Shown here piece after piece: positions 3,456 through 37,500 of a stretch of 63,444 nt of DNA. This DNA comes from a virus. The position numbers were made by a program, and so were the translations under genes. Below the pieces are notes generated by a model. That model was not told the DNA's origin. It was given only the letters and a program-made list of their open reading frames with translations, and did no database searches. The number at the start of each line of letters is the position of its first letter. Position 1 is the stretch's first letter. The stretch is from the IMG/VR virus record IMGVR_UViG_3300020183_000072, positions 1-63,444 of that record; one strand, given 5' to 3'.

Positions 3456-4578
3456 TCAAGCTAAGCTAAAAATAGTTTGTGATGAGGTTTGTGATGATAT
3501 TGAACTATTATTAGACTCCTTTGGTCTTGATTATAAGTTCAATAATAAGATGATTACTATGAGTTGTCCTATTCATGGTGGAGATAACCAGTCCGCATTA
3601 AATCTCTATCCTACTGGAGACAACTACAGAGGTAATTGGAAGTGTAGAACACATAATTGTGAAAATATTTTTAAAGCATCAGTATTGGGTTTTATTCGTG
3701 GTGTTATTTCTCACCAAAAATATGGATGGACCAAGAATGGAGATAATAGTTGCTCATTTAAAGAGGCTGTAGAATATGCAACATCTATTATTAATAAAGA
3801 TCTGTCTGATATTAAAATAAATAGAAAAGATAAAGAAAAAAAACAGTTCACCAGCGTGATGGGTTATCTCAATAGTTCTGATAATGACAATACCACAAAA
3901 AAAATTATCAGATCACAGATAGTTAGATCTTTAATCATACCATCACAATATTATCTCGATAGAAAATATTCTGCTGAAATACTCAGCAAATACGATGTTG
4001 GTTTATGTGACAAACCAGACAAAGAAATGTATAAAAGAATTGTTGTACCCGTATATGATAATGATTATAAGTATATGATTGGTTGTTCTGGTCGTAGTAT
4101 TTTTGAAAAATGCGGCTTATGTAAATCACATCACGATACAAATACAAATTGTCCAAACAATGATGATGGCTGGAAATATTCAAAATGGAAACACAGCAGC
4201 GGCTTCAAAAGTCAAAACCATCTCTATAATTTCTGGTTTGCTAAACAACATATTCTAAGCACAGCAACAGTTATTATTGTGGAAAGCCCAGGTAATGTTT
4301 GGAGATTAGAAGAAAACGGTATTCATAATAGTGTTGCTATATTTGGTTCCTCATTAAGTGATCGACAAAAAATATTATTAGATTCGTCTGGAGCTATGAA
4401 TATTATTATATTAACAGATAATGATGAGGCTGGTCGCAAGGCGGCAGATCAAATTAAAATTAAGTGTCAAAACACCTATAGGATTTTTAGTCCTCAGATT
4501 TCTAAAAATGATATTGGAGAAATGACATCATCAGAAATAGATATAGAAATTAAGGAATATATCAATAAAATTATATGA
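3421..4578 (+). CDS. DnaG-like primase with zinc finger and TOPRIM domain
   Basis: This is a DNA primase that makes RNA primers for lagging-strand synthesis. The N-terminal zinc-binding domain reads CPIHGG, then W-K-C-R-T-H-N-C. The TOPRIM catalytic core shows the conserved Glu in VIIVESPGNV and the Asp pair in ILTDNDEAGRKA. Between the two there is an unusual extra Cys/His-rich insert (CGLCKSHHDTNTNC). The frame is open from 3400 inside the helicase gene; the ATG at 3421 is preferred because AAAAGGG lies 12 bases upstream, though 3400 and 3430 are also possible. The overlap with the helicase and the ATGA overlap with the kinase suggest coupled translation. Confidence 0.85.
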   Translation: MTTMIRQSHLNDQAKLKIVCDEVCDDIELLLDSFGLDYKFNNKMITMSCPIHGGDNQSALNLYPTGDNYRGNWKCRTHNCENIFKASVLGFIRGVISHQKYGWTKNGDNSCSFKEAVEYATSIINKDLSDIKINRKDKEKKQFTSVMGYLNSSDNDNTTKKIIRSQIVRSLIIPSQYYLDRKYSAEILSKYDVGLCDKPDKEMYKRIVVPVYDNDYKYMIGCSGRSIFEKCGLCKSHHDTNTNCPNNDDGWKYSKWKHSSGFKSQNHLYNFWFAKQHILSTATVIIVESPGNVWRLEENGIHNSVAIFGSSLSDRQKILLDSSGAMNIIILTDNDEAGRKAADQIKIKCQNTYRIFSPQISKNDIGEMTSSEIDIEIKEYINKII

Positions 4579-5168: not shown

Positions 5169-6202
5169 TTATTACATATCTTAGAAGTAGTTCATACGGC
5201 ACACACAGTATGTGTCCTATGCAATATTTTATCGAATATAATTTAGGACTTAAAAGCCCATCTAATAAGAAGGCCGATAAAGGCACCATTTGTCACAAAG
5301 TTCTAGAAATATTAGCGCATATTAAATTATGTCAACAAAATAATTTATCCATATATATTGATGATATTTTAGGTTCAATATCTATAGATTCTTATAATTT
5401 GACCACTATTATAGAAAGAGTTTACAAGTACTATTCGTCTCAGTTTAAACATCATGAATGGGAAGCTAAAGACTATAAAGACTGCCACGCCTGGGTTCAC
5501 AAAGCGATTACAGACCACAATGGATCGTTTGATCCTCGCTCCAGAGACATTGTGCAACCAGAGCAAAGATTCGATATAGAGATTAAAAGGAAATGGGCCT
5601 ATTATAAATATGATAGAGATAATTTAGAGGGGTATTTAGCCATTAAAGGAACCATAGATCTTATCACAAGAGTTAACGATAATACATTAGAAATCATAGA
5701 TTGGAAAACTGGTAAAAGATTGGATTGGGCCACGGGTCAGGAAAAAACCTTAGCAAAATTACAAGACGATCCTCAACTAAGAATATATCATTATGCTGTT
5801 AGCTCACTATATCCTGAGTATGATCATGTTATGGTTAGTATTAACTTCATTAATGATGGTGGTGCTTTCACCATTTGTTATGATAAAAAAGATCTTATCA
5901 AAACAGAAGAAATGCTACGATCTAAATTCGAGACGATAAAACACACTAAAATTCCGCAACTGAATAAAACCTGGAAATGTAATAAATTATGTCACTTTGG
6001 TAAAAGTACTTTTGACAATAGTAGTATTCTACCAATAGTGGAATATAGACCCAATCAAGTGTGTGCTATAGATAGTACCATGACAAAATGCGAACAAATC
6101 AAACACGATATTGAAATCAAGGGTGTCAACAAGGTACTTGACGAATATACAACACCAGGGTATACTGTAGGTAAGTACAAAGCACCCGGCAGCACAGAAT
6201 GA
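5168..6202 (+). CDS. RecB/Cas4-like exonuclease, probable AUU start
   Basis: This is a PD-(D/E)XK nuclease of the RecB/Cas4 type. Its core shows GTICHKVLE (the metal-binding His), then the strand IKGTIDLI and EIIDWKTGKR, which give the Asp, Asp and Lys of the active site. A C-terminal KCNKLCHFG and the cysteine of the N-terminal SMCPMQYF may hold an iron-sulfur cluster as in Cas4/AddB. The first in-frame ATG is at 5210, but the conserved N-terminal pattern (ITYLRSSSYGTHSMCP) lies upstream of it in the same frame with no stop. The best start is ATT at 5168, overlapping the previous stop as TAATT, with AAAAAGGTG eight bases upstream. A frameshift from the kinase gene is the alternative. Confidence 0.75.
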   Translation: MITYLRSSSYGTHSMCPMQYFIEYNLGLKSPSNKKADKGTICHKVLEILAHIKLCQQNNLSIYIDDILGSISIDSYNLTTIIERVYKYYSSQFKHHEWEAKDYKDCHAWVHKAITDHNGSFDPRSRDIVQPEQRFDIEIKRKWAYYKYDRDNLEGYLAIKGTIDLITRVNDNTLEIIDWKTGKRLDWATGQEKTLAKLQDDPQLRIYHYAVSSLYPEYDHVMVSINFINDGGAFTICYDKKDLIKTEEMLRSKFETIKHTKIPQLNKTWKCNKLCHFGKSTFDNSSILPIVEYRPNQVCAIDSTMTKCEQIKHDIEIKGVNKVLDEYTTPGYTVGKYKAPGSTE

Positions 6203-8073
6203 ACTATATACCATTACATTGCCATTCCATGTATAGTTTATTGGATGGTTTATCTCAGCCAAAATCAATGGCAGAAAGATGTAAAGAAATTGGAGCATCT
6301 GCTTGTGCTCTTACTGATCATGGTAATATTGCTGGTGCAATAAAGTTTTACACTGCTATGAAGGCAGCTGGTATTAAGCCCATTTTGGGGTGTGAACTAT
6401 ACATATGTGATCAAGACCCATCATTTAAGGATAAAGAAAATAGATCTCTATCTCATTTTATTGTGCTTGCTCGTAACTATAACGGATGGAAAGACCTAAT
6501 TAGAATAGTATCAGAATCTAATAAACCAGAATATTATTATCATAAACCCAGATTAGATCTGCAAACTTTAGCCAAACTCAACAATGGTCATTTAGTAGCG
6601 ATCACAGGGCATTTGGGCTCAACTTTAGCCGATCTAATTTTGGATAACTATAATCTAAAAGACAATTGGTTATCTCTAGGAATAGAACATGTGAGATATC
6701 TTAAAAAGATATTCAATAATGATGTGTTTTTAGAAGCACAATTAATTGATAAAGATAATCTTCCAGTACAAATTCTATTAACTGATGCTATTAGGACCAT
6801 AGGTAAAGAAACCGACACTAAGGTTATTTGCACCCCGGATGCTCACTACTGTAAAAAAGAAGACGCTGTTGATCAACGTATATTATTATGCAATAATTTA
6901 AAAACAACATTTCCAGAAATTAGTCGCAAACTCAGCAACGACGAACAGGTTCCAATGGGGTGTTTCTTTATTTCTGAAAATTACCATATTCCATCTCAAG
7001 AAGAAATTAACGATCTGCATACACTAGAGGAAATCAGTAATACAAATTATGTAGCAAATTTAATAGAGGATTATGATATTTTGAGCAAACCTAGGTTGCC
7101 ACCATTTCAGTGTCCAACAGGATATGATGATGCTGAATATTTAAGAGAGCTTTGTAGAAAGGGCTGGAAAGATAAAATTGCCAATAATATACCAAAAGAA
7201 CATCAGCAGCAATATGTGGATCGCATAAAATATGAGTTAGATGTTTTACAGGGTGCTGATCTCAGTAGCTATTTTTTAATAGTTCAAGATATTGTAAAAT
7301 ATGTGAAGGACAATAGTTGGTTGCCCGGTCCTGGTAGGGGTTCTGCGGCTGGTTGTTTAGTATCTTATCTTATTGGTATTACAAATATAGATCCTATCAA
7401 ATATAACTTATTTTTTGATAGATTTTATAATTCTGGTAGGAATACGAAGGATAGAATAAGTATGCCAGATATTGATGTGGATGTGCCTATAGATAAAAGA
7501 GAATATATCATAGAATACATAAAAAATAAATATGGTGTGGATAAAGTTGCACAGATGATTACCTTCAATACTATAAAGGGTAGGGGTGCTCTTAAGGATG
7601 TTTTAAGAGTATATGGTAATATTGGTTTCGAAGAAATGAATCGTATAACTAAAAATATTCCGGACGAAGCTAAAATAGCTGATGATCTTCAGGAAATGAA
7701 AGAAGAGACAGGTGAGGCATCAATTATTAGATGGGCATTGGAAAATAATGGAGATAAACTTAGAGAATGGTGTTACATCGACGATAATGGCGAGCTTCAG
7801 GGACCACTGGCCAAAAGATTCGAACAGGCTATAAGATTAGAAGGAACAAAGTCGAATCAATCAAAACACGCCGCTGGTATCGCTATTAGCTCGGAGCCTT
7901 TGCATCAAATATGTCCAATGATTTATGCCACCAAGAACGAACAAATGATTGCTGGTATGGAAATGCAAGATCTAGAAAATATTGGTATAATTAAATTCGA
8001 TATTCTCGGTGTTGCAATGTTAGATAAGATTATGACTATTCAAAATTTACTTAGTAAAGGAGTTAATATATGA
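6199..8073 (+). CDS. dnaE: DNA polymerase III alpha subunit, N-terminal half (PHP + palm)
   Basis: This is the first half of a DnaE-type replicative polymerase. The N-terminal PHP domain looks intact: HCHSMYSLLDG, ALTDHGNI, ILGCELYI and CTPDAHY carry the metal ligands that are often lost in cellular DnaE. The palm follows, with PGRGSAAGCLVSYLIGI, the catalytic pair in MPDIDVDV and the third carboxylate in IKFDILGV near the end. The protein stops at residue 624, exactly after the palm, where a normal DnaE of about 1100 residues continues into the fingers. The missing half is the gene at 8937. The ATG overlaps the upstream stop (ATGA). No intein motif is visible at the break. Confidence 0.9.
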   Translation: MNYIPLHCHSMYSLLDGLSQPKSMAERCKEIGASACALTDHGNIAGAIKFYTAMKAAGIKPILGCELYICDQDPSFKDKENRSLSHFIVLARNYNGWKDLIRIVSESNKPEYYYHKPRLDLQTLAKLNNGHLVAITGHLGSTLADLILDNYNLKDNWLSLGIEHVRYLKKIFNNDVFLEAQLIDKDNLPVQILLTDAIRTIGKETDTKVICTPDAHYCKKEDAVDQRILLCNNLKTTFPEISRKLSNDEQVPMGCFFISENYHIPSQEEINDLHTLEEISNTNYVANLIEDYDILSKPRLPPFQCPTGYDDAEYLRELCRKGWKDKIANNIPKEHQQQYVDRIKYELDVLQGADLSSYFLIVQDIVKYVKDNSWLPGPGRGSAAGCLVSYLIGITNIDPIKYNLFFDRFYNSGRNTKDRISMPDIDVDVPIDKREYIIEYIKNKYGVDKVAQMITFNTIKGRGALKDVLRVYGNIGFEEMNRITKNIPDEAKIADDLQEMKEETGEASIIRWALENNGDKLREWCYIDDNGELQGPLAKRFEQAIRLEGTKSNQSKHAAGIAISSEPLHQICPMIYATKNEQMIAGMEMQDLENIGIIKFDILGVAMLDKIMTIQNLLSKGVNI

Positions 8074-8249
8074 ATAAGCAGTTTCAAGAAGTATCCGTTG
8101 GTTCGGTATTTACTCTAAACGAAACACAATATAAAAAGGTCGATACTGCAAAGGTTAGTTGTTGCAAATCTATAAATGCAATAGCTGTACAGAATGTGCA
8201 GAATAGAATTTTTGTACAACCAACTCAAGAGGTGGTGGTCTCTGAATGA
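8070..8249 (+). CDS. 59-residue protein with SCCKSINA motif between polymerase halves
   Basis: This small gene fills the gap between the two polymerase halves. It has a strong ribosome site (AAAGGAG at 8056-8062, seven bases before the ATG), overlaps the end of the upstream gene by four bases and ends in an ATGA overlap with the exonuclease gene, so it is almost certainly translated. The protein shows GSVFTLNETQYKKVD, then VSCCKSINAIAVQN and NRIFVQP, and looks like a compact beta-rich domain. I recall similar short phage proteins with a paired-cysteine CC-x-SINA motif but no function for them. Its position suggests contact with the polymerase, which is inference. Confidence 0.8.
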   Translation: MNKQFQEVSVGSVFTLNETQYKKVDTAKVSCCKSINAIAVQNVQNRIFVQPTQEVVVSE

Positions 8250-8944
8250 TTAACTATAACAAAATTTGTGTTTTTGATTTTGAAACAGATGGCTCTGATC
8301 CATCGGTATGCAGTCCCGTGCAACTGGCTGCTATTATTATAGATCCTATGAGTTTAGAAGTAATAGATGATTCAGAATTAAATATCCACTTTAAGCCAGA
8401 GGTTCTAGAAAATACAGAGAACTACACTTATGAAACCGATATTCTGGACTTTCATTCAAAGATTAAGGGGTGTTCCAAAGAAGAGGTCCTAAAGTCATGG
8501 TATAAATATCCTAAACAGGATCACTCTTGGAAGATATTTGTAAATTATTTAGAAAAATATCATACTAGATCATCCAAAAAAAGTCAATTTACAGCACCAA
8601 TAGCTGCTGGATATAATATTAATCGGTTTGATTTACATATTATTGATAGATTAAGCCGTAAATATGGTAACCTAAATAAAGAACATAGGACCAATTTATT
8701 CTATCCACGAGATGTTGTTGATGGTATGAATTTGATGTTTTATTGGTTTGAAAACAATAACGATTTAAAAAACTACACACTAGATAATGTGAGAGATTAT
8801 TTTGGGTTATCCAAGGATAATGCTCATGATGCTTTGCAAGATGTAAAGGATACCGCTCAAATTATTGTGCGTTTTCTTAAGTTACATAGAAATCTAGGAC
8901 AGAAAGTTAAATTTAGAAACGCATTCTCAAGCAGTAATGTCTAA
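8246..8944 (+). CDS. DnaQ-like 3'-5' exonuclease (polymerase epsilon-type proofreader)
   Basis: This is a DEDD-family 3'-5' exonuclease that would remove misincorporated bases. Exo I is VFDFETDG near residue 9, an Exo II-like segment is GYNINRFDLHII, and the C-terminal HDALQDVKDTAQII gives the DEDDh-type His and Asp of Exo III. The length of 232 residues suits a stand-alone proofreading subunit like E. coli epsilon. It lies between the two halves of the split DnaE, overlaps the small gene before it (ATGA) and overlaps the polymerase C-half start by eight bases, so all four products are probably made together. Confidence 0.88.
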   Translation: MINYNKICVFDFETDGSDPSVCSPVQLAAIIIDPMSLEVIDDSELNIHFKPEVLENTENYTYETDILDFHSKIKGCSKEEVLKSWYKYPKQDHSWKIFVNYLEKYHTRSSKKSQFTAPIAAGYNINRFDLHIIDRLSRKYGNLNKEHRTNLFYPRDVVDGMNLMFYWFENNNDLKNYTLDNVRDYFGLSKDNAHDALQDVKDTAQIIVRFLKLHRNLGQKVKFRNAFSSSNV

Positions 8945-10562
8945 ACATTTTTCATATTCGTGTGGGTGTAAGTTTCCTATTGTAGAAAACAATGGTTCTA
9001 CACAGATCACTTTTGATCCTTCTATAGATCATATGACCCTAGACTGTCAAAGAACCTGGGATCTTATATCAGATGGAAACACAAAAGGGTGCTTTCAATT
9101 AGAGAGTCGCCTTGGTAGATCTATGGCTAAGAAATTGAAACCATCTAATATAGAACAACTATCAGCGCTCATAAGCATTATGCGTCCTGGTTGTTTGGAA
9201 GCTATTAGAGATGGTAAAAGTGTTAGTCATCATTATATAGATAAAAAAAATGGACTAGAATCAGTAGATTATTTTCATCCTTGCTTGAAAGAAGTATTAG
9301 AGAATACATATGGAGAGATGGTTTATCAAGAACAAGCAATGGAGATTGTTAAGGTAGTCGCCGGCTTCAATCTTCAAGAAGCAGATATGTTGCGCAAAGC
9401 TATTGGTAAAAAGAAACCAGAAGAAATGGCCAAAGTTAAATCCAAATTTATGGATGGCGCTAGTGCTATGAGCCTAGTTACTCAAGAACAGGCTGAACAA
9501 ATTTTTGGATGGATCGAAAAAAGTCAGAGATATTCTTTTAATAAAAGCCATGCTGTAAGTTATGCTGTTAATGCTTATTTATCGGCATATGCTAAAGCAC
9601 ACTTTCCGAAAATATTCTTTGCTTCGTATCTGCGATTTGCTAAAGATAAAATAGACCCTCAATCAGAAATTAAGGAGTTAATACTTAATGCCAGCGAGAT
9701 GGATATTTCTGTACATAATCCGGATTTGAGATTAAAAAACGAATTTTTCATTCTGCATGATAATAAAATTTATTTTGGTTTAACTGATATCAAGGGTGTT
9801 GGATCTTCTGTGTTTGATAAGATTACTAAATTATCTACACAAATAGATTTTAACTCTATGTGTTGGTTTGAGTGTTTATTATTTGTCTTAATTAATATTA
9901 ATAGTACAGCATCGAAAGCATTAATTCAAAGTGGGTCTCTTGGATTTTTTAAAATATCCAGAAACAAAATGTTGTTCGAATACAACACCGTGAGTGGTTT
10001 GACAAAAAAGGAGTTAGAAATTTTAAGTAGTTATGTGAAAGAATTTAAAGATAAACACAAGCTCAGTGAACTATTATCATTAGTTCTTAGTCAGTCTAAA
10101 ATTAATAAAAATAGAAAAAATGCTATACAAGATATGATCAATTCATTAAAAAATCCCCCGTATTCTTTACAAGATAATCCTGAATGGATATCTGACTGTG
10201 AAGATTCCTTACTAGGATACTCAATCTCTTGCTCAAAAATAGACATGTATGATATTAGTATGACAAATATTACATGTAAAGAGTTTAAAACAACTACTAT
10301 GAAAGATAATTTAATTATCGGTGGAGAAATAGATTTTATTAGTGTAACAAAAACAAAATCAGGAAAAAACCCAGGATCAGAGATGGCATTTCTTACAATA
10401 ATTGATAGCACAGGCTCTTTGGATTCGGTTATAATGTTTCCAGAAAAGTATAAAGAATATAAGAATATATTATTCATTGGTAATGTTATCATATTAAAGG
10501 GCAATAAATCAAAAACTGGTGATGGCCTAATTGTGGAAAAGGCTTATATTCCAAGGGCTTGA
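8937..10562 (+). CDS. dnaE: DNA polymerase III alpha subunit, C-terminal half (fingers + OB fold)
   Basis: This is the second half of the split DnaE polymerase. After a short new N-terminus with a C-G-C motif it begins in the fingers: TWDLISDGNTKGCFQLES matches the DnaE segment with GdT-x-GvFQlES, followed by LSALISIMRPG, YQEQAMEIVKVVAGF, ADMLRKAIGKKK and YSFNKSHAVSYA. A helix-hairpin-helix region (GLTDIKGVG) and a C-terminal OB fold (GGEIDFISVTKTK, then AFLTIIDSTGSLDSVIMFP) follow. It has no palm, so it can only work with the 6199 product. The stop codon lies inside the -35 element of the SSB promoter. Confidence 0.9.
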   Translation: MSKHFSYSCGCKFPIVENNGSTQITFDPSIDHMTLDCQRTWDLISDGNTKGCFQLESRLGRSMAKKLKPSNIEQLSALISIMRPGCLEAIRDGKSVSHHYIDKKNGLESVDYFHPCLKEVLENTYGEMVYQEQAMEIVKVVAGFNLQEADMLRKAIGKKKPEEMAKVKSKFMDGASAMSLVTQEQAEQIFGWIEKSQRYSFNKSHAVSYAVNAYLSAYAKAHFPKIFFASYLRFAKDKIDPQSEIKELILNASEMDISVHNPDLRLKNEFFILHDNKIYFGLTDIKGVGSSVFDKITKLSTQIDFNSMCWFECLLFVLININSTASKALIQSGSLGFFKISRNKMLFEYNTVSGLTKKELEILSSYVKEFKDKHKLSELLSLVLSQSKINKNRKNAIQDMINSLKNPPYSLQDNPEWISDCEDSLLGYSISCSKIDMYDISMTNITCKEFKTTTMKDNLIIGGEIDFISVTKTKSGKNPGSEMAFLTIIDSTGSLDSVIMFPEKYKEYKNILFIGNVIILKGNKSKTGDGLIVEKAYIPRA

Positions 10563-10586
10563 CTTGTGTCCCGTCGAGCTTACAAT
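10559..10586 (+). promoter_or_regulatory. sigma70-like promoter for SSB
   Basis: TTGACT (10559-10564) and TACAAT (10581-10586) are separated by 16 bases, each one mismatch from the bacterial consensus. The promoter sits just upstream of the SSB gene and overlaps the polymerase stop codon. It would let SSB be made more strongly than the replication operon in front of it. Confidence 0.7.
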
Positions 10587-10623
10587 ATGTCAGGTTTGGT
10601 TTTAAATTAACAAGGAGATGTAT

Positions 10624-10995
10624 ATGAATATGAATATTGTTATGATTAAAGGTAATTTAGCTAGGGATCCGGAACTCAGAGTTATTACAACTGGTGATAA
10701 ACAAACTTATGTGGTTAATTTTACTGTTGCCACATCAAGAGAATTCACCAAGGCTAATGGTACACAAGATAAAATTACCTCATTTATTCAGTGTGAAGCA
10801 TGGGATAGTGGCGCCGAGGCCATTTCATCTTCGTTGAAGAAGGGCGATCTAGTAATTATTGAAGGATCATTACGTAATGACAGTTGGGAAAAGGATGGAG
10901 TAAAACATTATACTCTAAAGGTCAGAGTTAATAATTTTGGTAAAATCTCAACAACCAAAAGATCAGAAAAAACAGCCGACGCTGTTGCGTTCTGA
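10624..10995 (+). CDS. ssb: single-stranded DNA-binding protein
   Basis: This is an OB-fold SSB of the bacterial type, coating single-stranded DNA at the fork and during recombination. The N-terminus MNIVMIKGNLARDPELR, the FTVATSREF strand, the FIQCEAWDSGAEAI segment and the LKKGDLVIIEGSLR loop are all canonical. The C-terminus is short and ends in AVAF, without the acidic tail of cellular SSB but keeping the terminal Phe, so recruitment of host proteins through the tail may be reduced. CAAGGAG at 10611-10617 is best spaced for the ATG at 10624; the ATG at 10618 directly abuts it. It has its own promoter. Confidence 0.92.
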   Translation: MNMNIVMIKGNLARDPELRVITTGDKQTYVVNFTVATSREFTKANGTQDKITSFIQCEAWDSGAEAISSSLKKGDLVIIEGSLRNDSWEKDGVKHYTLKVRVNNFGKISTTKRSEKTADAVAF

Positions 10996-11015
10996 TTTTA
11001 AGTATCTCTAATATA

Positions 11016-11046
11016 GATCCCTGGCATCTCAATGGTGCCAGGGGTC
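11016..11046 (+). terminator. hairpin after SSB, possible terminator
   Basis: GATCCCTGGCA (11016-11026) pairs with TGCCAGGGGTC (11036-11046) over 11 positions with one G-U pair and a nine-base loop. No uridine run follows, so it may be a weak terminator, a processing site or an RNA-stabilising 3' hairpin between SSB and the glycosyltransferase module. Confidence 0.4.
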
Positions 11047-11059
11047 TGTATTCTATAAC

Positions 11060-12679
11060 ATGAAAAAAACAAAAATTTTACTATGTAACGATGCTAGTTT
11101 TTTAGATACCGGTTATGGTATTTATGGTAAGGAAATTCTCTCACGACTACATAAAAACGAAGAGTATGAAGTAGCAGAATTAGGTTGTTTTGTTGATCAT
11201 TTAAATACCAGAATTAAAGATATTCCCTGGCGGTTCTATGCTAATGCTGTGCCTGTTAATGACAAAAGATACAACACTTATAGAAGTAACAACCTTAATC
11301 AGTTTGGTCTTTGGAGATTTAATAGGGTTTTAGCAGATTTTAATCCTGATATAGTTTTTGATGTTAGAGACTATTGGATGAGCGCGTATCAAGAAACCAG
11401 CCCATATCGTAGATTTTATAATTGGGTAATAATGCCAACAGTAGATTCTGCTCCTCAACGCATAGATTGGAAAATTACATTTAAAAATAGTGATTTAGTA
11501 GTTCCATATACTCAATGGGCCAAAGACACCCTAATACAAGAGTGTGGGGATACTATTAATCTATTCCCACAAATCGCTAATGCTGGAGTAGATTACAATA
11601 TATTTAAACCAATATATAATAAAGATGAACACAAAACCAAATATTTAGGTACAAACAAAATTAATGTGATTGGCACAGTAATGCGTAATCAAAAGCGTAA
11701 ATTACTAGCTGATCTTATATTAGTATTAAATGAATTTATTAAGAAGCCTAGTAATTCAACAAATACAGTATTATATCTTCATACTAGTTATCCAGAAGAG
11801 GCTGGGTGGGATATTCCCTCGCTTCTTTTAGAATATGGTGTTGCTGATAGGGTTTATTTTACCTATTTGTGTAAATCATGTAATAGTTTTTTCCCTTCTA
11901 AGTTTAATGGGATTACGACAAAGTGTACAAGTTGTGGATCTTATAATGCACGATTTACTAGTACAGCTAATTCGGTATCTACTTCACAATTGAGTGAGAT
12001 ATATAATCTGTTCGATGTTTATCTACAATATGCTATATGTGAAGGATTTGGTATTCCACAAATAGAGGCTGCATCTTGTGGCATTCCTATTATGGTTGTG
12101 GATTATAGTGCTATGTCCAAAATTGCTGATAATTTATTAGGGTATAAAATACCGTGTTCCCTATTTAGGGAAATGGAAAGTAATGCTTTAAGAGCACTTC
12201 CAGATAACAACTATACTATCAATTTACTAACTCAATTCTTTAATAAGACTATTACTATTCCTAATAGTGATCATATCAGAGAGAAATGTATTGAAAAATA
12301 TTCTTGGGATAATGTTTATCAAACATGGAATGCTGCCTTTGATCATATAAAAAATAATCAGAAAACAAATTGGGATACATCAGAAAAATATACAACAAAC
12401 CATACGAATGTATCGATTCCATCCACAATATCAAAAAAAGAATTTGTTGAATTCATGTGTTCTCATGTAATTAATGAACCATACTTAATTAATACAGCAC
12501 CAATACAAATGTTAATCAAGGATTTTATTAATAGTGTAATAGTTCAGAATGGTCATTTTAAAACCTTTGGTCATCAAGATGTTATTGCTATTCTAGAATC
12601 ATTCCTAAATAATAAAATTGTTTGTGAACAGATGAGAACAAACAAAAATTCTATAGCCAAAGAGGATTTTATTCCATGA
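11060..12679 (+). CDS. GT4-type glycosyltransferase with zinc-ribbon insert
   Basis: This is a glycosyltransferase with the GT-B fold. The N-terminal half starts KILLCNDASFLDTGYGIYGK, like the glycine-rich donor/acceptor loop of GT4 enzymes, and the C-terminal half has CEGFGIPQIEAASCGIPIMV, the E-x7-E signature that binds the nucleotide sugar. Between them lies an unusual insert with CKSCNSFFPSK and CTSCGSYNA, a zinc ribbon. The last 100 residues are helical with no known domain. Substrate is unknown; phage enzymes of this kind modify DNA bases, virion proteins or host surface sugars. It starts a run of genes coupled by ATGA overlaps. Confidence 0.82.
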   Translation: MKKTKILLCNDASFLDTGYGIYGKEILSRLHKNEEYEVAELGCFVDHLNTRIKDIPWRFYANAVPVNDKRYNTYRSNNLNQFGLWRFNRVLADFNPDIVFDVRDYWMSAYQETSPYRRFYNWVIMPTVDSAPQRIDWKITFKNSDLVVPYTQWAKDTLIQECGDTINLFPQIANAGVDYNIFKPIYNKDEHKTKYLGTNKINVIGTVMRNQKRKLLADLILVLNEFIKKPSNSTNTVLYLHTSYPEEAGWDIPSLLLEYGVADRVYFTYLCKSCNSFFPSKFNGITTKCTSCGSYNARFTSTANSVSTSQLSEIYNLFDVYLQYAICEGFGIPQIEAASCGIPIMVVDYSAMSKIADNLLGYKIPCSLFREMESNALRALPDNNYTINLLTQFFNKTITIPNSDHIREKCIEKYSWDNVYQTWNAAFDHIKNNQKTNWDTSEKYTTNHTNVSIPSTISKKEFVEFMCSHVINEPYLINTAPIQMLIKDFINSVIVQNGHFKTFGHQDVIAILESFLNNKIVCEQMRTNKNSIAKEDFIP

Positions 12680-23816: not shown

Positions 23817-25577
23817 CTAACATAGAGGTTGATTATTTTTGCACATATACTCTAAATTAATACTAAAAGATCCATCGATAGAATTAACAGTTGTATCATC
23901 TTTAGTTTTGATCCAAGTATCTCCTGTGAGTGTTCTTAGTGATGCAATATTAGCAATAGTATTAATAGGATCAGCATTACACCATCCAGTACCACAACTT
24001 TTATTGCTAGGATGAGCACCATCTATATTAATAGAAATTGTGAGTGGTGTAAACATTCTTAATTTTTGAATAATAGGACCACTAACCCTACCAGGTATAA
24101 TAAATTCTTGGGTCATTTGAACAGGATCTTTTCTTACTATACTAATATTTGTATAACCCATATCATTACTTTCCGTTGATTTAGTATCATAAACAGCAGT
24201 ATATGTTATTGATCCTTCATGATAATCATGATCTAGTGTAAAGCTTTGAGCAACTGGATAGCCAGTGGTTGGGTTACTTATAAGCAAAGCACTTTTAGTA
24301 ATATTGAGTGTTTGTTTTAAGCTATCCATTAGATCTCCACCAATAATTCCTATCCTAGAATTATAAAAAGCTAAAGCATTGCTATATTTGGTTTCTTCTC
24401 CATCGTGTCTCGTAATGAAAGTGCCGTTTTTAGGTAGAGTAAATTCAACATCTTTTTCATATATAAATCCACCTTGTACTAATCCTTGTAAAGTACCCTG
24501 AATATTAATAGTAACCTGATTAGAAGCATCATAACTAATACTTTTTGTATAAGTATGTATGCATGAATTTTGAGATTTACTAAATGATGGATTATGTCTT
24601 TTTAAAATAGCATTATATGTAATAGAAAAAGATCCATCGGATTCTGATGTTTCACAAGTTATAATCTCATTATGAACCTGATATTTATTACCTCCGTTTT
24701 TAGGAGTATCAAAAGCATCCATAATGCCACCATCTGTTGACACAGCATGAATTTCAGAGAGCTTTTTACCTGGAAGACACCCATCGTAATTAGGATTAGA
24801 TTGACCGGTCATTACTAGTATACCGTTAATTAATCCATTAACTTGAGTATAGAGCCTATCCTGAACAAATAATTTAGCTTGTTCCCAAGCTGGCACAAAC
24901 TGATCGTTATTATAGTAATTTTTACCAGTAGCAGATAGTGTGTATGTTACTCTGAAATTACTATTATAAAAGTCCTGGTAGTTATCATAGATTTGATCAT
25001 CAATAGATATTGACCATTTATCAGAAAACTCTTTGATCTTAAATTTTTTCATATCCACTAAATTATCGGATGTATATTCATTACTTGATTGATTTGGGGT
25101 ATGAAAAAAACTACTGTTACATGCTATAGCTGGATTATTAGAACAACCAGTCATATCAATTTCATTAAATTCAATCTCTATGGTGAATTGAGAATAATTT
25201 ACCCAAAAATTGTCTGACTGATCAAAATTTATACTTTTAACAGTACCACCCTTAGCTAATAATACTGTGGAAGATCCACTCTTAACATGCAAATTTCCAC
25301 CATTAAAATTAAAAATATTTCTGATATCATCCATGTGACCTATGGTTTGATTAGCACCATAATTAGGTTGTCCAACTGGTCTAGAATTATCTTCTAATCT
25401 TAAAGCATTAGCATATCCTTTAAGAGTAATATTATAAGTATATCCTATAACACTATCATTAGCATAATAAATTTCAGGATTAATAGTAAGCATAGGAGCC
25501 GGAACAATTCTATTAGAATCGCTCGGACTACTAGACTGAGCACAGTAGTATACTTTAAGATTGCTTTCGTATGCCAT
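23817..25577 (-). CDS. tail-tip structural protein, paralogue of the gene at 21972
   Basis: This is the second copy of the tandem pair (586 residues). It opens MAYESNLKVYYCAQ and shows the same succession of motifs as its neighbour, with divergence between them well over half of positions by eye, so the duplication is old. Its ATG overlaps the tape measure stop as TAATG, so it is translationally coupled to that gene, the usual place for a distal tail protein. No catalytic motif is visible. Confidence 0.65.
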   Translation of the reverse strand: MAYESNLKVYYCAQSSSPSDSNRIVPAPMLTINPEIYYANDSVIGYTYNITLKGYANALRLEDNSRPVGQPNYGANQTIGHMDDIRNIFNFNGGNLHVKSGSSTVLLAKGGTVKSINFDQSDNFWVNYSQFTIEIEFNEIDMTGCSNNPAIACNSSFFHTPNQSSNEYTSDNLVDMKKFKIKEFSDKWSISIDDQIYDNYQDFYNSNFRVTYTLSATGKNYYNNDQFVPAWEQAKLFVQDRLYTQVNGLINGILVMTGQSNPNYDGCLPGKKLSEIHAVSTDGGIMDAFDTPKNGGNKYQVHNEIITCETSESDGSFSITYNAILKRHNPSFSKSQNSCIHTYTKSISYDASNQVTINIQGTLQGLVQGGFIYEKDVEFTLPKNGTFITRHDGEETKYSNALAFYNSRIGIIGGDLMDSLKQTLNITKSALLISNPTTGYPVAQSFTLDHDYHEGSITYTAVYDTKSTESNDMGYTNISIVRKDPVQMTQEFIIPGRVSGPIIQKLRMFTPLTISINIDGAHPSNKSCGTGWCNADPINTIANIASLRTLTGDTWIKTKDDTTVNSIDGSFSINLEYMCKNNQPLC

Positions 25578-28500
25578 TATGTTTTCTGTCCTTCTGCTTC
25601 TCCATACTGACCATTAGATTGAACCCATATTTTATTCATCTTTTTACTAATTTCAGCTTGAATCATATTGCCAAAATCTTTCTTTAACCCCTCAAAAGCT
25701 GCTGCTCCAGTGATACGAACATCCACCACATGATTGCCTCGCATCTCTATTTTTTCTGGAATTTTAGGAATATTAATAGTAGCTAGTTTATCCACATAAG
25801 TTCCAAAATTATTAAGTATAGTACCAAAACTCTCTAAAAATTGTCTTGATTGATCATCTAATGTTAATACATTAGCCATCATTTGTTGAGTATCACCCTG
25901 TTGAGTTCCGGCGGATGCTGTTGCTGTTCTGGCTACTGGCGTGGTTCCTAGTGGTGCTGGTATTGGTCCTTGTGGTGCGACAACTGATGGGGCACGCCCT
26001 CCCATAACACGTACCATTTCGGCATCTCCTCTTTCTGCTCGTGCTCTTTCTTCTGGAGTCATTCTTTCTCTTGTGCCACGATTAGCGTATCTCGCAGCAT
26101 TACGAGGAGCACTATCACTGCTCGCATCCGCGATCATAAAGTTTCTTTCAAGATTTCTGCCAGCCGGAGTAGCCGCTGATGTTTCCACTGGTTTAGCGAC
26201 TGGCCTCATAGCACTAGATGCTCTGTCTTGAGCAGCCTTTAGCTGTTTGCGTTTTTCTTCCATCTCAGCATTAATAGTTTCAATATCAGCTTTGGCGGAT
26301 GCTGCGGCCGCTTCGGAAGTTGTTGGCACACCCTTTTTATATGTACCAGCACCCATTTTGGCGCGTCTTTCGTATACGGCCTTCTTTTCAAAACCCGATA
26401 TTTCACTTTGTTTACCACTAATTGAAGCTTCCATTCTACTCATTTCTTCTTGTAATGCTTTAGCTTCTGCTTCTGCTCTTTTTCTTACAAAAATATCTGG
26501 TTCCATTCCTGGTGCGGCCGGAGTTGATGGGGCACTATCGGGGAGTGGCTCTGTTGGCATACCCCAACCTTCAAGATATGCGGCTCGTTCCTCGAATCTT
26601 TTACGGGCCATATCCGTACCATTAGGCTGGGTTGTTGTGGCGGATGGAGAAGGTGTTGATGATGATGGTGGTAGAGTTCCTGTTAATGGCTCTTGGTATG
26701 GTGCCATTAAAGATGCTGCTCTATTATCTGTGGGTTGTGCGGGACCGATTTGTTGATTTGTTGCTGCTTGTTCTTGTTGTGTGGATATGGCTCTGGTTAA
26801 AGCTTCTGTATTCGCACCGGATTCAACAGCTTCTCTTATGGTCACATCGTGTTGTTGGCCCATCTCATCCTGATAGCTTGCAATAATTTGTGAAGTATCA
26901 ATATTTTTAGACTCTAATTGTTTAATCAATTCGTCTGCTGATCCGCCTGTGGTTGTTGCTTCGGCCACGGCTGGTGATGCGCTCTTGTTGCAAACACAAT
27001 TAATTAATGCTTCTGTATTAGCTTTTGTCGCTTCTGTATTAGCTGTTAATGTATCTCCAATAGAAAGTAATTCTTTGGTTTTGCCTAGTGCTCCTCCAGC
27101 AAAATCTTTAACTTTACCAGCAGCATATTGACCAACCTTAGCTGTTCCTACAGCGGCTAATCCTGCGGGACCAGCCGCAGCACCAGCCAACCACGGCCAC
27201 CACGAACCCTTTTTCTTTTTGGCTGTTGGTGGTTTTTCTTGTGTTGTTGGTGTTGCGGTCTGCTCTTGTTGAGACTCCATTAAACTAGTTCTGGCTTCAG
27301 CTGAACCTTTTTCGGCAGAAGCGGTAAGAATATCCAGTGTTGGTTCTGTTGGGGTAGTACCCATTACTGCTGCTGTTTTTACTCGTTTTTCTACGGCTTT
27401 GGAACGAGCTGTGGTTGATGGTTTTTGTTTACCACCACCAGTATATTGTTTGTATCCCTCCAAACCAGCTCCTATTAAACCACCCACACCGGCTCCTATA
27501 GCAGTACCTATAACGGGAATGAACGAACCAATCGTGGCCCCTGTAGCGGCTCCTGATAATGCGGCTCCACCAATAGCACCAGCTTTATCCAGAGTGCTTC
27601 CTTGTTTCGCTCCTAACATACGACCAATCATACTTTGTTGAGAAGAATCTTGTCCCCCAGTGAACATACCCAATAAGCCCTTTTCGATCATTCCTCGTTG
27701 CTTACCATCTTTTTTAACTTCTCCTTTTTCTGCCATAGCGCTTCCTGCACCTAATACTAGGCCAAGAGGACCCAATATTTTACTAGCGCCTTTTAATGCG
27801 GTACCAACCAGAGGATTTTTGGCCACACCAGAGAGCATAGATCCAGCACTTCCTAATAATTTACCTCCTTGTTTAGCAGTTCCAGATAAGAGTCCGCCTA
27901 ATCCACCAGCATCTTTTGCTTTGCCTACTAATCCAGCAACATATTTGCCTGCTCCTGTTTTTTTAGCCGCATCTACTGCTCCTGTTACACCACCCTTAGC
28001 AACATCATATAAACCGGTTGCTGCTTTACCAACGGTGCTAGATTTAGCTGTTTGTACCACATCTGATCCGAATTTAAGAGCTTGTTGAGCTGCTGGTGTT
28101 TGAGCCGCTCCTCTAACAGCACCTAATCCCATATCTTTTAAGCCACCAAACAAACCTTTAACTGTTTTAACTGTTTTTGCCGCATATTCTCCTCCTTTTG
28201 ATGCTGCTTTACCAGTTCTACCACCAAAAACGACGGAAGCCTCATCCGCCATTTCAGCAGCATAACTTCCTTTAGCTGTGGACAACATATCTTTCGCTAT
28301 TCCGGCATATTTAGATACTGTTCCTGATGCTGCGCCTCGAACCATTCCAGACACTTTTTTACCTTTATTTAGCACGCCCGAAACCAAAGCATCTCCTCTA
28401 CTTCCAGCTGCTGCACCCGCTCGAATATCTCGTGGTAGTGTGCCCAAACCATAAACAGTACTAGCTTGACTGGTGGTATCAACAGCACTCTTAACTGCTC

Positions 28501-31500
28501 CACCCACAGGACTATCGGGTGTACGAGTGGTTGGCTTAGTTGCTTCTGCTGTTTTTTTCTCTGCTTCTAATTGTTTAGGTCCAGCTTCCTGAATTCTTCT
28601 TTGAAAATCGCCAGATAAAGCTGCTGTATTATCATTAAGAGCTTGTGTAAGTCTATCAGCAGCAGCACCAAATAGTTTACCCATTTCTTGATTAGCTGCT
28701 GCTTGTTTATCCACAGCTTCTCTATACGCTTTTACTGTTGGATCTTCTTCTGGTTTTTCCATTTTTCTTAAAAGATCTTCAATACTTAATTTAACTAATT
28801 TACCATTTTCATCTGTATAACTTGCTAAAGTTTGATTAAGATCAGTACCTCCTGCTTGTAAAGATTGTCTCATGGCGCTAGCTTTAACTTTACCTCTTAT
28901 ACTTTCTGGTAATAAACCAGTTAGTTCATTAAGACCAGCAAATCCTTGTTGTCTAAATTGTGTACTTTGTAATTCTTCTTGAGTAGCGGTGCCAGCTGCT
29001 AATTTTTGAGCTGCTGCAAATTGACCCTGCATATCAAATAGTTGTTCCGGATCAGATGTAAGTATTTTTTCTAGCATATTAGCACCAGCTGTGGTTGCTA
29101 CTGCTCTACGATTCATTACTTCTAGAGCATTAGATGCTGCTTGGCCACTATCAGCCATCAGTTTTAATGCTTTAGTTGCTTCTGCTTGTGCTAATTTATT
29201 TTTTTGTAAACTAGCAGTGCTATCATTAACTTGTCTAAGATATTTATCTATATCAGCTTGTTCTCCTGATTCTGGTCCTTGAGCCATCAGAGATGCTAAT
29301 CTAGCTTCATCAGCAGCCATAGTAGCTTGATTGCTTCTAATAGCTTCACCTAGTTGTCTTGGATCAAGTGTGCCACCGGGAATAATACCAGATGTCATAC
29401 TGCGAATAGTTTGATTTTCTGGCGCATTCATTTGATCTAACGATAATTCTTTACCTAGAGTTCTAGCTAATTGTAACTCACCATTTAATCTAATATCATT
29501 GGCTTTTCTTTGATAATCTAAACTTTGTTGTATTAAATTATTTTGTTGATCAATATAATCAATACTCTTTTGTAAAGTATCATTAAATTGTTTAAGAATA
29601 TTTTTAGCTGTCTCTAAACCCTGTGCTGCTGAGTCTCCTGCTATCCTTAAAGCATCCATACTAGAAATTTCTGCGAAACTAGTTCCACTCTCAGCTTCAC
29701 TTTCTAATTTCTTTCTTAACTCATCAATAATTGGCTTGGCTGTGTCACCACTAATATTCATTTTACTAAATGTATCTTCTACTCGTGAGATTATATCCTC
29801 AGCTCCAGCGCCAGAAGCGGTACTCCTTAAAATATCTGGTAGCTCATCTTGTAGAACTTTAGCCGCAACAGCGCTCTGCTCTACTCGTTTACCCGCCTCT
29901 CCACCCCCAGCTAATCTTGCTGCTGTTGCAGCAGCTGCTTGTACTTCTTGTGTGGAGTAGCCACTAATATTACCTAATACCTGTTCTTGAGTTCTGTTAA
30001 CTTTACCCATACTAACATTACCAGTCAAATCTCCTATTTCTGTTTGCAATACATTATCCATATTTTGCATATCATCGCTAAATCTTTGTAGTGCTGCATT
30101 AATTTTTCTGAAAGTTTGTGTCAAGGCTTCTGCTGCTATTTGTACTGCTTTAGTAGCTCTTGCTAATGCTATTTGTTTAAGAATTTGTGCCTGTTGTTCC
30201 GCAACAAGTTTTTTACCTTCTTCGATAGCTTTGGCTCTATTTCCACTGATTTCTTTTTCTATCTCAGAACTACTTTTACCTAGTCTAGCTTGTTCTGCCC
30301 TATAAGATGTTAAATATGCCTCTGATGCATCTCTACCCTGTTTTTTGTATTCTTCTACCATAAATGAAGACTCAGCCGCTGCTGCTATATCAGCTTGACT
30401 AGCACCTGTTTCTCCACCCCTGATCCCTTGCTCATATATTTTATTAAAATCAGCATCAGACATAGTTCTATATTGTGCTGATGCCATTCTACCAATATTA
30501 GCTACATCTGCTTGGGTTTTACCTCTGAGTGCTTCTTGAGCTTCAGCTTTTTGTTTTGAGCCTGTGGCTCCTGGTAAATAGGATAAAGGATTAAACCATG
30601 AAGTATTGGCTGTTGCCATGCCTTCTAAATCACTGGTCACTTTTAAGCTTTTCCCAAATTCTTGGCTAACTTTATCAAAATCTGCTTTAGTAAAATTACC
30701 TTCTAATTTTTGGAATGCTTTTTCTAAATCACCAGATGTTGTTTTGAGAGCATCTAATGTATTTTCTAATCGTTTATTTGCTATAGACTCTCTGGCTCCA
30801 TTAATAGCGCCTACAAGTGCTCCTAGAGCAGCACCAACAGCCGCTCCCGGAGGACCAAAAACGGATCCAATGGTTGCACCAGTAGCCAATCCTTGACCGG
30901 CTCCTCCTATAGCTCCGGCCACCCCAGCAGCAGCGGTACTCTTTCCTAGTTTTGTACCAAAAGTACTATCTAAACTATTATATAAATCTGGTAATTTATC
31001 TCCAACTAAACTTAATGCCATACCAGCAGCAGTGGCTGGACCACCTAATTTACTAACCAATCCGCCAAACTGTTTACCTACAATACCAGCTAAGCCTTTA
31101 GTGCCTCCTGCAAACCCTATTTTATCTAATAATTTACCACCACCAACTTTATTAAATAAGGATGTTAATCCACCCTCTAATTTTTTCTGTACATTAGCAG
31201 TTTCAAACATTTTACCAAATTCAGCTAAACGATTAGCAGTACCACTTTCATTGAATTTTCTCGCCATGCCGGGGAAAAATTTAGCTATTTCAGCTCCACC
31301 CTTACCAAATCTTTCCCCGATCTGTCTGCTAACAATATCTCTGTTTTCTGCTCTAGCTGCCTTGCGAGTAAAGTCTTTTTTAGAACCAAATTGTTCTTCT
31401 GTTAATGCTTTACCAAGAGTTTCTACTAATTTATCATATTCTTTGGCTGCTCTTGATTTTGCAGATTCGACTGTTTTTGATGCTTCTACAATATTGGTGT

Positions 31501-34500
31501 TACTTTCGATGATAGTATCAAATGATTGAGATGTATTTTTTAACTTATCAATAACATCTTTAACTGCTTGGTCTAATGCGTCTCTTTCTAAGCCAGTAGC
31601 CGCTCCTATATCTTGTTTGAGTGTTGATGTTAATTTTTTCTCTTGTGATTTATCTCCACTACGGGCCATTGTTCTATATTCTTGTTCATTAGATAAACCA
31701 GCACCTAAAAATTCTTCAAATCTATCTTCTTTTGCTCTGGCTGATCCACTAGCAACACCACTTAAAGCAGCAGCTTCACTTTCTGCTATAAAATCTTCAT
31801 AAGATATATTTCTACGCTTAGCTCTTCTCTCTGCTCTTCTTCTTTGTTGCTCTATGCCATCAACTGGAGGCGCTGGGGACGACGAGGACGAGGACGACGA
31901 CCCGGGGGGCACTGGAGGAGGACCGCCACCACCCCTAGGGGGTAAAGGAGGAGGAGCACCACCAGTGCCACCAGGAGCGCCAACTTGTGGTATTGGTGTT
32001 CCAGGACCCACTTGTGGAACAATATCTGATGCTTGTAATCCAGCATATGTTGATCCTGTTCTTGCTAACTCTTCTGCTAGCATTTTCATGCCTTGTTCAC
32101 TATCAATAGTGGACGTCAAAATATTTCTTACTGCTGGACTAGCTTTAGCAAAAAACTCTGCAAACAATTCTTTATTACTAGCTAAATATTTAGCTATCCA
32201 TTCTGCGCTATAACCAGCATTTAAAAAAGCTTTTTCCATTACTGGTTTAACTTTTTCTACAACATCAAATTGAAATGTACCTTTGGTTTCACTAGCAAAA
32301 GTATTCATTCCGGCTTGACTAGAAACGGCGGCATCAGCTAAATGTCCAGTTTCATGAGCCACAGTTTCCGTAGTAGCAGCATCCTTTGTTTTAATACCAA
32401 AAAGACCCTTGATAGAAGACAATATTCCCTTCCCTATTTTTAGTCCTATAGCAGTACTACCAGCCTCTGAGGTGACAGCTACTCCTCTCTGGCCTTCTCT
32501 AAATTCTGGACCACTTCCTCCTTGTAAAGATAATCTTTGTCCTGGTCTTAAACTTTCTATTTGAGTATTCTTCAAAGCTTGCTGTATATGTGCTGGTAGT
32601 GATGAGATGATTTCAGACACAGTTTCCAGAGCGTGACTAACATCTTTTATTACTTCTCCCTGCGCTCTTTCCACATCTTTTTCTGCTTTTCCACCTTCAA
32701 AAAATCTACGAATATTACCAACAGCACCACCCTTATTAAATCCTTGTATTTTATCCGCCTTATTCATCTTATTTAATTTAGAGTATCCAATTTTTTGAGC
32801 AGCTTGTTTGTTAATAACAAACTCACCTGGGGTTAGGAGTGCTGGTACGGTATCTTTTGCCGAGCCCCCTTTAGCAAACGGCTCTAAACTTATTGGTCGT
32901 AAAGCTGACTCACCAATATATTTTAATACCAGACCCATTGGCTTTTCAAATAATTTGCTTTCAAAAGCATCTACTAATTCTGGGTCTGCGGTTCGAAGCC
33001 TACTGATTATCTGACTAATAATAGCTCCTTCTGTAATATTAGATGGGGAACCGGCATATATTTCTTTGAGTCCTTGTGATGCGGTTTTAGTAACTATACC
33101 AGATGACATTATACCTTGAGATCTATTTTCAGTTATAATATCGACTATACCACCTAAATCTTTGGTGGGATTAAGTTTATCCTTAATCTGATCATAATTA
33201 CTAGTTAACCATTTTATAATTAAACCCTTTTCTAATTCATAGTCTAGATCAAAGTTTTTTGGATCTAATATTTCTGAAAAAGTAACTACCATTGGACGAC
33301 CAGAGGTGTCTCCGCTAGTAACAGTACCGAATCCACCTCCAGATACTCTCATTTGTGCTTGTTTAACTGCTCTGTCTCTATCTGTGTACAAAAATAGGCC
33401 AGCACCTTGACCATAGCCTTGTGCAATACCTGACATGCCGCCCTGCTCTTGAAAACTTTTAAGAATAGAATCATTTGTTCCTGTAGTTGTACCATGATAG
33501 AGTTTTACCGCTCCTCCCACAGCAAATCCTTGAGCTTTCATGAATTCTTGTAGAGCAGCCTCCTCTTGTGTTCGTATGGTATCTGATGCCATTAATTCTG
33601 CTTGGGTATCTAATAATCCAAATTTAATATCCTTACCTTTTTGTTTACGAGCAGCGGCTCTTTGAACTTGTTGCTCTAGTCCAGCTTGATCTAATCCCAT
33701 TGCGCTAGCTAACTTTTGTACTTGCTCGAATTCTTTTTGACTTAATCCATATTTTTTAGCTAGAGGATTAACTTTACCACCAAAAAAGAAAGTTTTAACA
33801 ATACCATCAATAGCATCTGTTATACTATCACTAGTAACAGTGAGTTTAGCTTGAGTGGGTATTCCAGCAGGAATTCCAAAAACATCAGCAGCTAATGGAC
33901 TTAATCCAGAAGCAAAGTCTATAGCATCTTGTGATGATCGTTTACCGCCGGTGGATCCAAGCGCTGCTAATATCATTTCAACATCATATCCTTGAGCATT
34001 AGCAATGCCAAAGGTTTTACGGTCTACTTCAGAAATAGACATTGCTGATTGTCCTCTTCTAGAAGCTATATTTCCTGCTGCTTTCATTTGTGATTCATAA
34101 TATTCTCTCCATAGTTGCTCAACATCAGCATAATCGGTTGGTTGTAAAATTCCTGTATAAACCCTCATCGGATTTTTACCTTTACGTTTTCTATAATACG
34201 GCATCAGATCTTTAAGATTTGACCTAAATCCAACTATACCAACTGGTCTGGCTGATGCTATTTCTTCCGGAGAGAGTCTGAAATCGTCCTCTCTCTTAAC
34301 TTTTGCATCTTCTATTAATGCTAGATCTAATAGTTTATCAATTGTTGGTATAAATGGTGTTACTTTATCAGATTTGAGAAAATCTAAATCTAGAATACGT
34401 TTGGGTAGGACACCTCTGACTCCCACAGCACTAGCTTCTTGAATTATTTTTCCAATACCTATGAGAGACTTGATTCTTGAAGATGTACCCAACTCTTGAA

Positions 34501-37500
34501 CAAGCTTAATAATTTCTGTTATAGATCGCGGTGTGCTAATAGGCTCGGGTTCTCCTCCGTCCACAAATTTTTGTACTAATCCTCCATTGGCAAATTCAGC
34601 AGAGCCTGGGACGGCTTGTCTCATTGCCCAGGCAAAATGAGAAGCTCTACCAGCATTTTTAGGTAATGCTCCACCAATATAATTATCAAAATCACTTAAT
34701 GCCGTTGTAACTTTTCTTAGTTGATCAGTTAAACTTTTTTGTATTTTTGCGTCTGTTGTTCTGGATAGTTCTGTTTGTATTGATGATTGTAGTTGTTCTA
34801 ATTGAGATTTTGCTTGTGGAAATTTCTCAAGAAGTGCTTTAGGGCTTAGGAATTGTTCAGTTTTTGCTGCTTTTTCAAATTGCTGTAAAAATGGTATTTT
34901 CGCAGCATCTAAGCCCATTTCTTTACGATATTCTGGGTCTTGCTCATATTCAGCTAATTTTAGGGCAGCTTGTCCAGCTGGCGCCCTAGGACCTCTTTGT
35001 AATCCAGCAGCACTAAATGTTAGTGCTCCTTCTGTTTTTTTTAATCCTCTGGTAGTAGATTGTTGTGATGACTTAGTTTTTTTCTCTTTGAGTAGAAATC
35101 TAGCAATTTTATCTTTATAAAAACCCATTTGAGTAGGATCTGTTGGATCTGGAATCAAATCTTTTTTAAGTTCGTCGGTAATTTTATCTGCTGGAACCCT
35201 AACAAACTCTTTGCCAACCCTCAGTCCTGCTCCACCTGTTTCTAAAGCATATTGTGCTAATAAATAATCTGCTAAAGCTATTTCTGGTGGCATGCTAATA
35301 CCCATATATGATGCTTTAACTAAAGATGGATCAGCATCATATTCAGCATATATTTGTTTTGCCCAATCTAGATATTTTTCTATTCCTGGAAGCCCTCCTT
35401 CAGTTGGAGAAATAAATCTATCTCTACGTCCTAGCTTACCTTTTCTACCACGACCTTTACCACTAGGTAACCTAATTCCACCAGGAGAACCCTCTGCAAA
35501 TTTTTGAATTAAGCCACCAATGTTTTTCTTTTGTGACCATGTTGTATTATACCATTTTTGAAATTGATCCTTAGCATTGGATGCCATTTCAAAAACATCT
35601 ATAGAACCAATACCAACATCCGGATCAAATTTTGATGTAAATGGATATTTACTTAAAGATTGTTGTTGAATATGATGTCTAACTAATTTACTTAAATAGG
35701 TATTATCATCATGAATTTTTTTTGTAAATTTTACTTCTGCAACTTTATTACCACTAATAATATCTATAGGATAGTCAGCGCCATAATTTGCTATATCAGC
35801 TGTTCTTTTAGCTTCTCTACCTAATAGATTAACTATACTTTCTTCAAATGCGTGTCCTTGAGCTCTAAAATAACTTTCACCACCTTGATATCTTTCTTCA
35901 ATTCTTTTAGCTAGAGTTTTCCAGTTAATGGGTGAGGTTTGATTAGCATCAAAATTAAATTGTTTTCTATTGATAGAAGCACTGACTTGATCATTTGATT
36001 GTATCTTATTATTATATCCTGATTCTATAGAACTATCTTCTCTTGCTAATTCTTTTAATTTAACTGGTCCTCCTTTAGCGTATTTATTCATTTTATGTAG
36101 TCTATTGGCACCAATAGTTTCTACTGCTTTTTTGCGTATAACAAATTCTCCTGGTTGAAGCATAGCGGGTACGGTATCTCTATTACCCTGACCAGGAACC
36201 ACACCACCACGAGCAAATGCCAATATTTTACCTCCACCATTTTTAGTGGTTGGTGGAGCGGTATAAATGTCTAGTATAGAGAATTCTAAACTCTCTATAG
36301 CACTAGTTAAGCTTTTAATAGCATCTGTATTTGATCTTATTGCATCAGCGGCTTTAGATGTTGCTTCTGTTCTTTCTTTTTCTTTAGCACCGCTAATACT
36401 TTCACCATAGCTTTGACCAACTTGTTTTGCGCCACCACCCTTACTAACACCACCAAAAAATCCACTAGCGAACTGGGTCAAAGCACTAGCACCCTTAACA
36501 ACGCCCATCAAACCCAAAATTGGTAGAATGGGTTTGAATGCACCAGCTAAACTAATGAAACCACTAGTCAATGAAGTTACTATTTTAAATAGTCCTTGAA
36601 ATACGCTACTTTGACCAATATCTCTAATCAAAGCTAAAAATTGCTCTCTAACTCTAGCTAATTGATTTGCTAAACTTTGTTGAGCTTTGATCTGAGCTTC
36701 TGTTAAACTACCCTGACCTCTTTGAGCAACACCCAAAGCTTTTTGAGCTTCTCCAAATTGCTGAATTAATGGAATAACTTTACCAATCTGTCGAAAACCA
36801 CCAAGCTCTTCTACTATTTGACTAAATCTCAAATCTCTAGGACTTAAGCTTTTAAGTCCTTCACTTAATCTTTTAATAGCTTCGTATGGTCCAACGAATT
36901 TACCTTCTAAATCAGTTAATTCTATACCAAATTGTTTGAGTTGCTTAATAGTACTACCTCGTTGAATACGAGTAAAAATAGTACGCAAACCAGTAGCAAT
37001 AGTTTCAGCGCTTTCACGAGTAGTAGCACGAACACTGGTAAACACAGCAATAAATTCATTAAGAGCATCTGCCCCTTCTGAAACTCCTTTACTAGCACTA
37101 GCAAAAACACCACCAGTACGCTGAATAGCACTAATAATATCTCTAGATTCCACAGCAAAAGCAGCCGCAACAGCATTAATACTACCCAATACTGCCTCAA
37201 GATCACTAGTCTCTAAACCAAACTGTCTTATAGCAGCAATAGCGCCTTCTGTGGTTTCGGTAATATCGTCGAATGAAGGAGCCAAATCTGTTTTAGCAAG
37301 AGCAGCTAGGGCTATTCTTGTGTCATCAGCTGTTAATCCTGCCTGAGCTAGAGTACTAGCGACCTCGATCAAGCCCTCACTACTAACACCAAGATTGATA
37401 GATAAATTAGTAATTGTTTTTTCAAGATCTTTAATACCGATAGCGCCCTGACCAGTAACTTGTTGAAGCTTTACTAGTTGTTTATCGAAACTAATAAATG

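Follow-up and report, generated by a model that had tools for sequence, protein, structure and literature searches.

Replicative polymerases encoded in separate pieces are already known. The DnaE of cyanobacteria is encoded by two genes, and its halves are joined by a split intein (cited in PMC3919608). In phages, the split PolB of Aeromonas phage 25 consists of gp43A and gp43B, which purify together and have polymerase activity (PMC2988022), and the PolB of Pseudomonas jumbo phage MIJ3 is divided by a split intein, with an HNH endonuclease at the break (PMC6892783). Here we describe a DnaE-type locus in a metagenome-derived virus record, the whole analysed stretch of which (63,444 nt) we call the window. 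The best reading of this locus, and one that we hold to be very probable, is that it encodes a C-family replicase made of two chains that must act together without a covalent bond, accompanied by a proofreader of its own.

By open reading frame calls, polN, small, the dnaQ-like gene and polC form four overlapping plus-strand frames at positions 6199-10562 of the window (Table 1). Their overlaps of 4, 4 and 8 bases agree with the range of 4-8 bases given in an initial annotation of this DNA, and the gene for a Cas4-like nuclease overlaps the start of polN, also by 4 bases. Just 3' of the replication genes lies a glycosyltransferase-like gene (11060-12679; PHROG 2170, 1e-25), and one very large minus-strand frame of 4131 aa occupies positions 25577-37972.

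Table 1. Genes of the divided polymerase locus and its neighbours in the window, with the basis for each reading.
Gene	Position	Strand	Reading	Basis
Cas4-like	5210..6202	+	Cas4-like PD-(D/E)XK nuclease; upstream of polN, same operon in relatives	PF12705; synteny
polN	6199..8073	+	First chain of DnaE-type Pol III alpha (PHP, palm with thumb; 624 aa)	Pfam, TIGR00594, invariant residues
small	8070..8249	+	59 aa, predicted SH3-like beta-barrel	Conserved ORF, AlphaFold2, weak fold matches
dnaQ-like	8246..8944	+	DEDDh exonuclease, 232 aa, likely proofreader	RNase_T, PHROG 192, alignment
polC	8937..10562	+	Second chain of this Pol III alpha (fingers, HhH, OB; 541 aa)	PF17657, PF14579, PF01336, TIGR00594, fold match
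SSB	10618..10995	+	Single-strand DNA-binding protein; after polC, same position in most relatives	PF00436; synteny

Judged by sequence, polN and polC together are one complete DnaE-type Pol III alpha, for which polymerase activity is predicted. In Pfam, polN matches PHP (2e-37) and the DNA_pol3_alpha palm (PF07733, 1e-73, reaching residue 604), and polC matches the finger domain (3e-46, from profile position 21 of 166), HHH_6 (4e-8) and OB (8e-5); the OB match alone falls below the curated Pfam cut-off, and its region is covered by NCBIfam TIGR00594 and by the polC fold match. On the TIGR00594 model polN covers positions 1-573 and polC 579-1021, and hence nothing is missing between the halves. 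The C-family domain set of PHP, palm, fingers, HhH and OB is present in full and in order across the two proteins, whose combined length is 1165 aa. The palm aspartates D424, D426 and D601 of polN, which correspond to E. coli D401, D403 and D555, are invariant among the 15 sequences aligned, and all nine expected PHP metal ligands are kept. The initial annotation had polN carrying the PHP domain and three palm carboxylates and then ending, as is indeed the case; it had polC beginning in the fingers and running to the OB fold, which Pfam and TIGR00594 bear out except at the start, where about 25 additional N-terminal residues carry a nearly invariant CGC motif in a segment missing from unsplit enzymes. 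The closest solved structures for both chains are bacterial Pol III alpha subunits. AlphaFold2, applied to single chains, folds polC alone as a Pol III alpha, with low confidence at residues 84-110, for which the missing palm partner may be one possible reason. In place of the single polypeptide usual for a C-family polymerase, two genes encode the enzyme at every readable locus of this viral clade; because homology and residues are retained, we regard the pair as a variant of the C-family polymerase.

The last residue of polN aligns at about residue 576 of E. coli alpha (break 576/577), 21 residues past the third catalytic aspartate; the break was mapped by alignment to the enteric alpha subunit, and in a Salmonella record whose annotation lacks 16 residues the same position is numbered 560. 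It sits in the linker that follows the last palm helix, the length of which is also variable among unsplit enzymes. The earlier placement of the break at a domain border is thus right to within some 20 residues, the break lying by Pfam about that far beyond the palm border and not exactly on it. The polC of one relative (L050) has no CGC segment and starts directly at MFDANI, and its polN and polC set end to end give an unsplit linker.

Searches with polN found 72 viral loci, and further ones came from profiles of polC and dnaQ and from a query taken from a deep branch. The same split in related phages, which the initial annotation had proposed to look for, is present with dnaQ between the halves in 233/233 viral clade loci readable on both sides of the break; this count includes repeated contigs and corresponds to 123 distinct dnaQ sequences and 109 clusters at 95% DNA identity. 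An arrangement that recurs in this way reflects more than chance. Cellular DnaE loci are continuous at the break position in 78/78 cases. Among the relatives, identity to the window falls as low as 49% for polN, 34% for dnaQ and 42% for polC, and the tree gathers the split rows into a single, fully supported branch. The deepest branches lack the small gene, and we therefore take polN-dnaQ-polC to be the core. All four frames are under purifying selection, with dN/dS in close pairs of about 0.03-0.05 for polN, 0.02-0.08 for dnaQ, 0.03-0.07 for polC and 0.03-0.12 for small. The origin of the window in a metagenome-derived record might suggest an error of sequencing or assembly, or a pseudogene in decay, but 109 distinct clusters from many samples, a second contig (L001) with the same structure and about 99% protein identity, and the strong purifying selection make this vanishingly improbable. 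Homologues with one continuous frame, which the annotation had named as grounds against the split, number 0/233 in the clade, and sequencing error is therefore excluded; together with dN/dS, the 233 split loci rule out frameshift and pseudogene as well. With the break kept in about a hundred divergent genomes of these uncultured phages, the product is in all likelihood a genuine two-part enzyme of long standing. In one relative (L042, 6449-6530) an in-frame TAG and a short insertion, an error or real, lie just past the PHP motif HVHS of polN. Bacteroides phage DAC19, brought up by a dnaQ match, was rejected as a relative, having a different neighbourhood and no DnaE match.

A covalent union of polN and polC, through a split intein that escaped detection or through splicing of an intron containing small and dnaQ, would draw its support from inteins and split inteins elsewhere in the polN and polC of relatives, and from the DnaE gene of phage KKP_3916, which contains a group I intron. 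In L053, polN (8001-9416, 10202-11077) is broken at GPGRG|SAAGC by a natural split intein with an IntN of about 90 aa, matched by the intein N-terminal model, and an IntC of about 50 aa ending in HN|S; the ORF between the intein halves may be a homing endonuclease. The polN matches of L058, L060, L064 and L066 are broken at the same place, and a split intein is likely there too. An in-frame cis intein with an HNH-type nuclease interrupts polC at RPG|CLEA in L046 (10736-13003, analysed in detail) and in L064 (3673-6021, from the model); the match points to the same intein in L049, and the near-identical L050 is without it. These inteins would be healed by splicing, whereas the palm-fingers break stays unhealed. 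As the initial annotation had reported, inteins are not evident in the window: its proteins match no intein model in Pfam or NCBIfam, and the same models do match relatives with inteins elsewhere (L053, L046, L064), which provides a positive control. Rfam gives no intron match between positions 5000 and 12000, with E values up to 1 allowed; polN has its own stop and polC its own start, neither with an intein-sized tail. No homing endonuclease was found at the break in the window, which holds small and dnaQ; L007 and L008 alone have an additional 227-aa ORF in the break, HNH-like by eye and without a Pfam nuclease match. In three relatives (L121, L124 and L130) extra genes stand between dnaQ and polC, which makes read-through or splicing very unlikely; in L121 (3371-6001) and L130 (2355-6001) these are several genes, including a ThyX-like and a DUF1559 prepilin-like one. 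Against this evidence we give a joining of the halves a slim chance. DUF1559 is typical of Planctomycetota, and some phages of the clade may thus infect members of this phylum; the DUF1559 gene is absent from 13 other contigs.

Close overlaps of frames in the window might also recall ribosomal frameshifting or bypassing as a means of joining polN to polC. We consider this extremely unlikely: the two genes are separated by about 860 bases with 35 in-frame stops, the frame of polC relative to polN varies among relatives, and the spacing reaches 4.5 kb. The genes often overlap by 4, 8 or 14 bases, and in every locus counted a Shine-Dalgarno-like match for small stands where polN ends, polC often being without one; this pattern suggests coupled translation.

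The dnaQ-like protein matches Pfam RNase_T (5e-11) and PHROG 192, "DNA polymerase exonuclease subunit"; its DEDDh residues D11, E13, D129, H194 and D199 are invariant among the 17 sequences aligned, and it has a conserved C-terminal KFKxSF-like tail. From motif and position, it is likely the proofreader of the polN/polC polymerase. The small protein is confidently predicted by AlphaFold2 as a beta-barrel (pLDDT 95.5), the fold of which weakly resembles eIF5A/EF-P barrels and some small, uncharacterised proteins of phages.

Each of 13 contigs of 75-231 kb, which may themselves be fragments, holds a single palm frame and a single fingers frame; no A-family or B-family polymerase and no beta-clamp is matched, and a second intact polymerase was likewise sought in them and not detected. 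With no clamp match, host parts are probably used. The lack of a clamp match, and the possible incompleteness of the contigs, which leaves room for another polymerase, would also fit phages that rely on host Pol III and keep polN and polC for other roles; we judge this unlikely, as the catalytic residues and both chains are strongly conserved and occur together in every readable clade genome.

We propose, then, that the locus encodes a DnaE-type catalytic subunit permanently divided into two chains. The PHP-palm and fingers-HhH-OB chains would be produced from a single operon, probably through re-initiation coupled at overlaps of 4-8 bases, and would associate non-covalently through the usual palm-fingers interface. 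They would thereby build one active site, with the catalytic aspartates contributed by the first chain and the fingers and template-binding parts by the second, and the DEDDh exonuclease encoded in the break would act as proofreader. Docking at this interface is the simplest reading, and gp43A/gp43B of Aeromonas phage 25 are a direct precedent for it (PMC2988022). The split would have arisen once, before the clade radiated, and would not have been undone since, possibly as the break now encloses a gene that the phage needs. More broadly, we see an even chance that an ancient lineage made its replicase obligately multi-chain, from a PHP-palm chain, a DEDDh proofreader and a fingers-OB chain, with the proofreader gene hindering re-fusion, and that the palm-fingers linker is a natural joint divided at least twice, in this clade and in phage phiT1. 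The locus indicates that a bacterial-type replicase can be divided at its palm-fingers joint and remain so over long evolution. It provides structural and engineering studies with a DnaE that is naturally in two parts, and is a testable case of a core enzyme turning multi-subunit; annotation of such phages will show two seemingly incomplete polymerase genes.

Among described systems, the DnaE-type Pol III alpha of bacteria and phages shares with polN and polC the domain order from PHP to OB, the catalytic residues and the overall length (1165 aa for the two chains together), but is encoded by one gene, where here there are two, with dnaQ and small inside the break and an extra CGC segment on polC. 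Cyanobacterial DnaE is likewise a two-gene enzyme, with its halves joined by an intein; the present one has no detected intein and is broken elsewhere, in the palm-fingers linker. The gp43A/gp43B pairs of Aeromonas phages 25 and 44RR are also phage replicative polymerases in two intein-free chains, but belong to the B family, with an unrelated fold, and have a seg homing endonuclease or an untranslated spacer at the break and not a proofreader gene (PMC2988022). In MIJ3 a phage polymerase gene is again in pieces, but it is of the B family, with a split intein and an HNH endonuclease (PMC6892783), and the NrdA of phage Aeh1 likewise is an essential phage enzyme in separately translated functional parts, though a different enzyme and one divided by a homing endonuclease gene (PMC2988022). 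The DnaE of phages KLEB27-3, KKP_3916, MMB025 and Jayan breaks at other points of the gene: in KLEB27-3 (L078) it is interrupted by an HNH-type endonuclease gene, and in KKP_3916 (L079) at several places, including just past the KMDFLG motif, with the Rfam group I intron at 3715-4048. The cultured Rossellomorea phage phiT1 (gp20-gp19-gp18) has a DnaE divided in this same linker, where a small gene (the 49-aa gp19) separates the two parts, but it has no dnaQ in the break, its small gene is unrelated, the CGC segment is missing and identity is about 30%. On the best tree phiT1 falls outside the split clade, a common origin not being rejected (AU p = 0.41), and a search of viral contigs with its polN found no relatives. 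A literature search, which was not exhaustive, found neither a split phage DnaE nor an intein-free split C-family replicase, and in particular no intein-free DnaE divided around dnaQ. Split polymerases are familiar, and what is new here is that the enzyme is of the C family, that no intein is involved, that dnaQ lies inside the break, and that the arrangement is fixed in a large clade.
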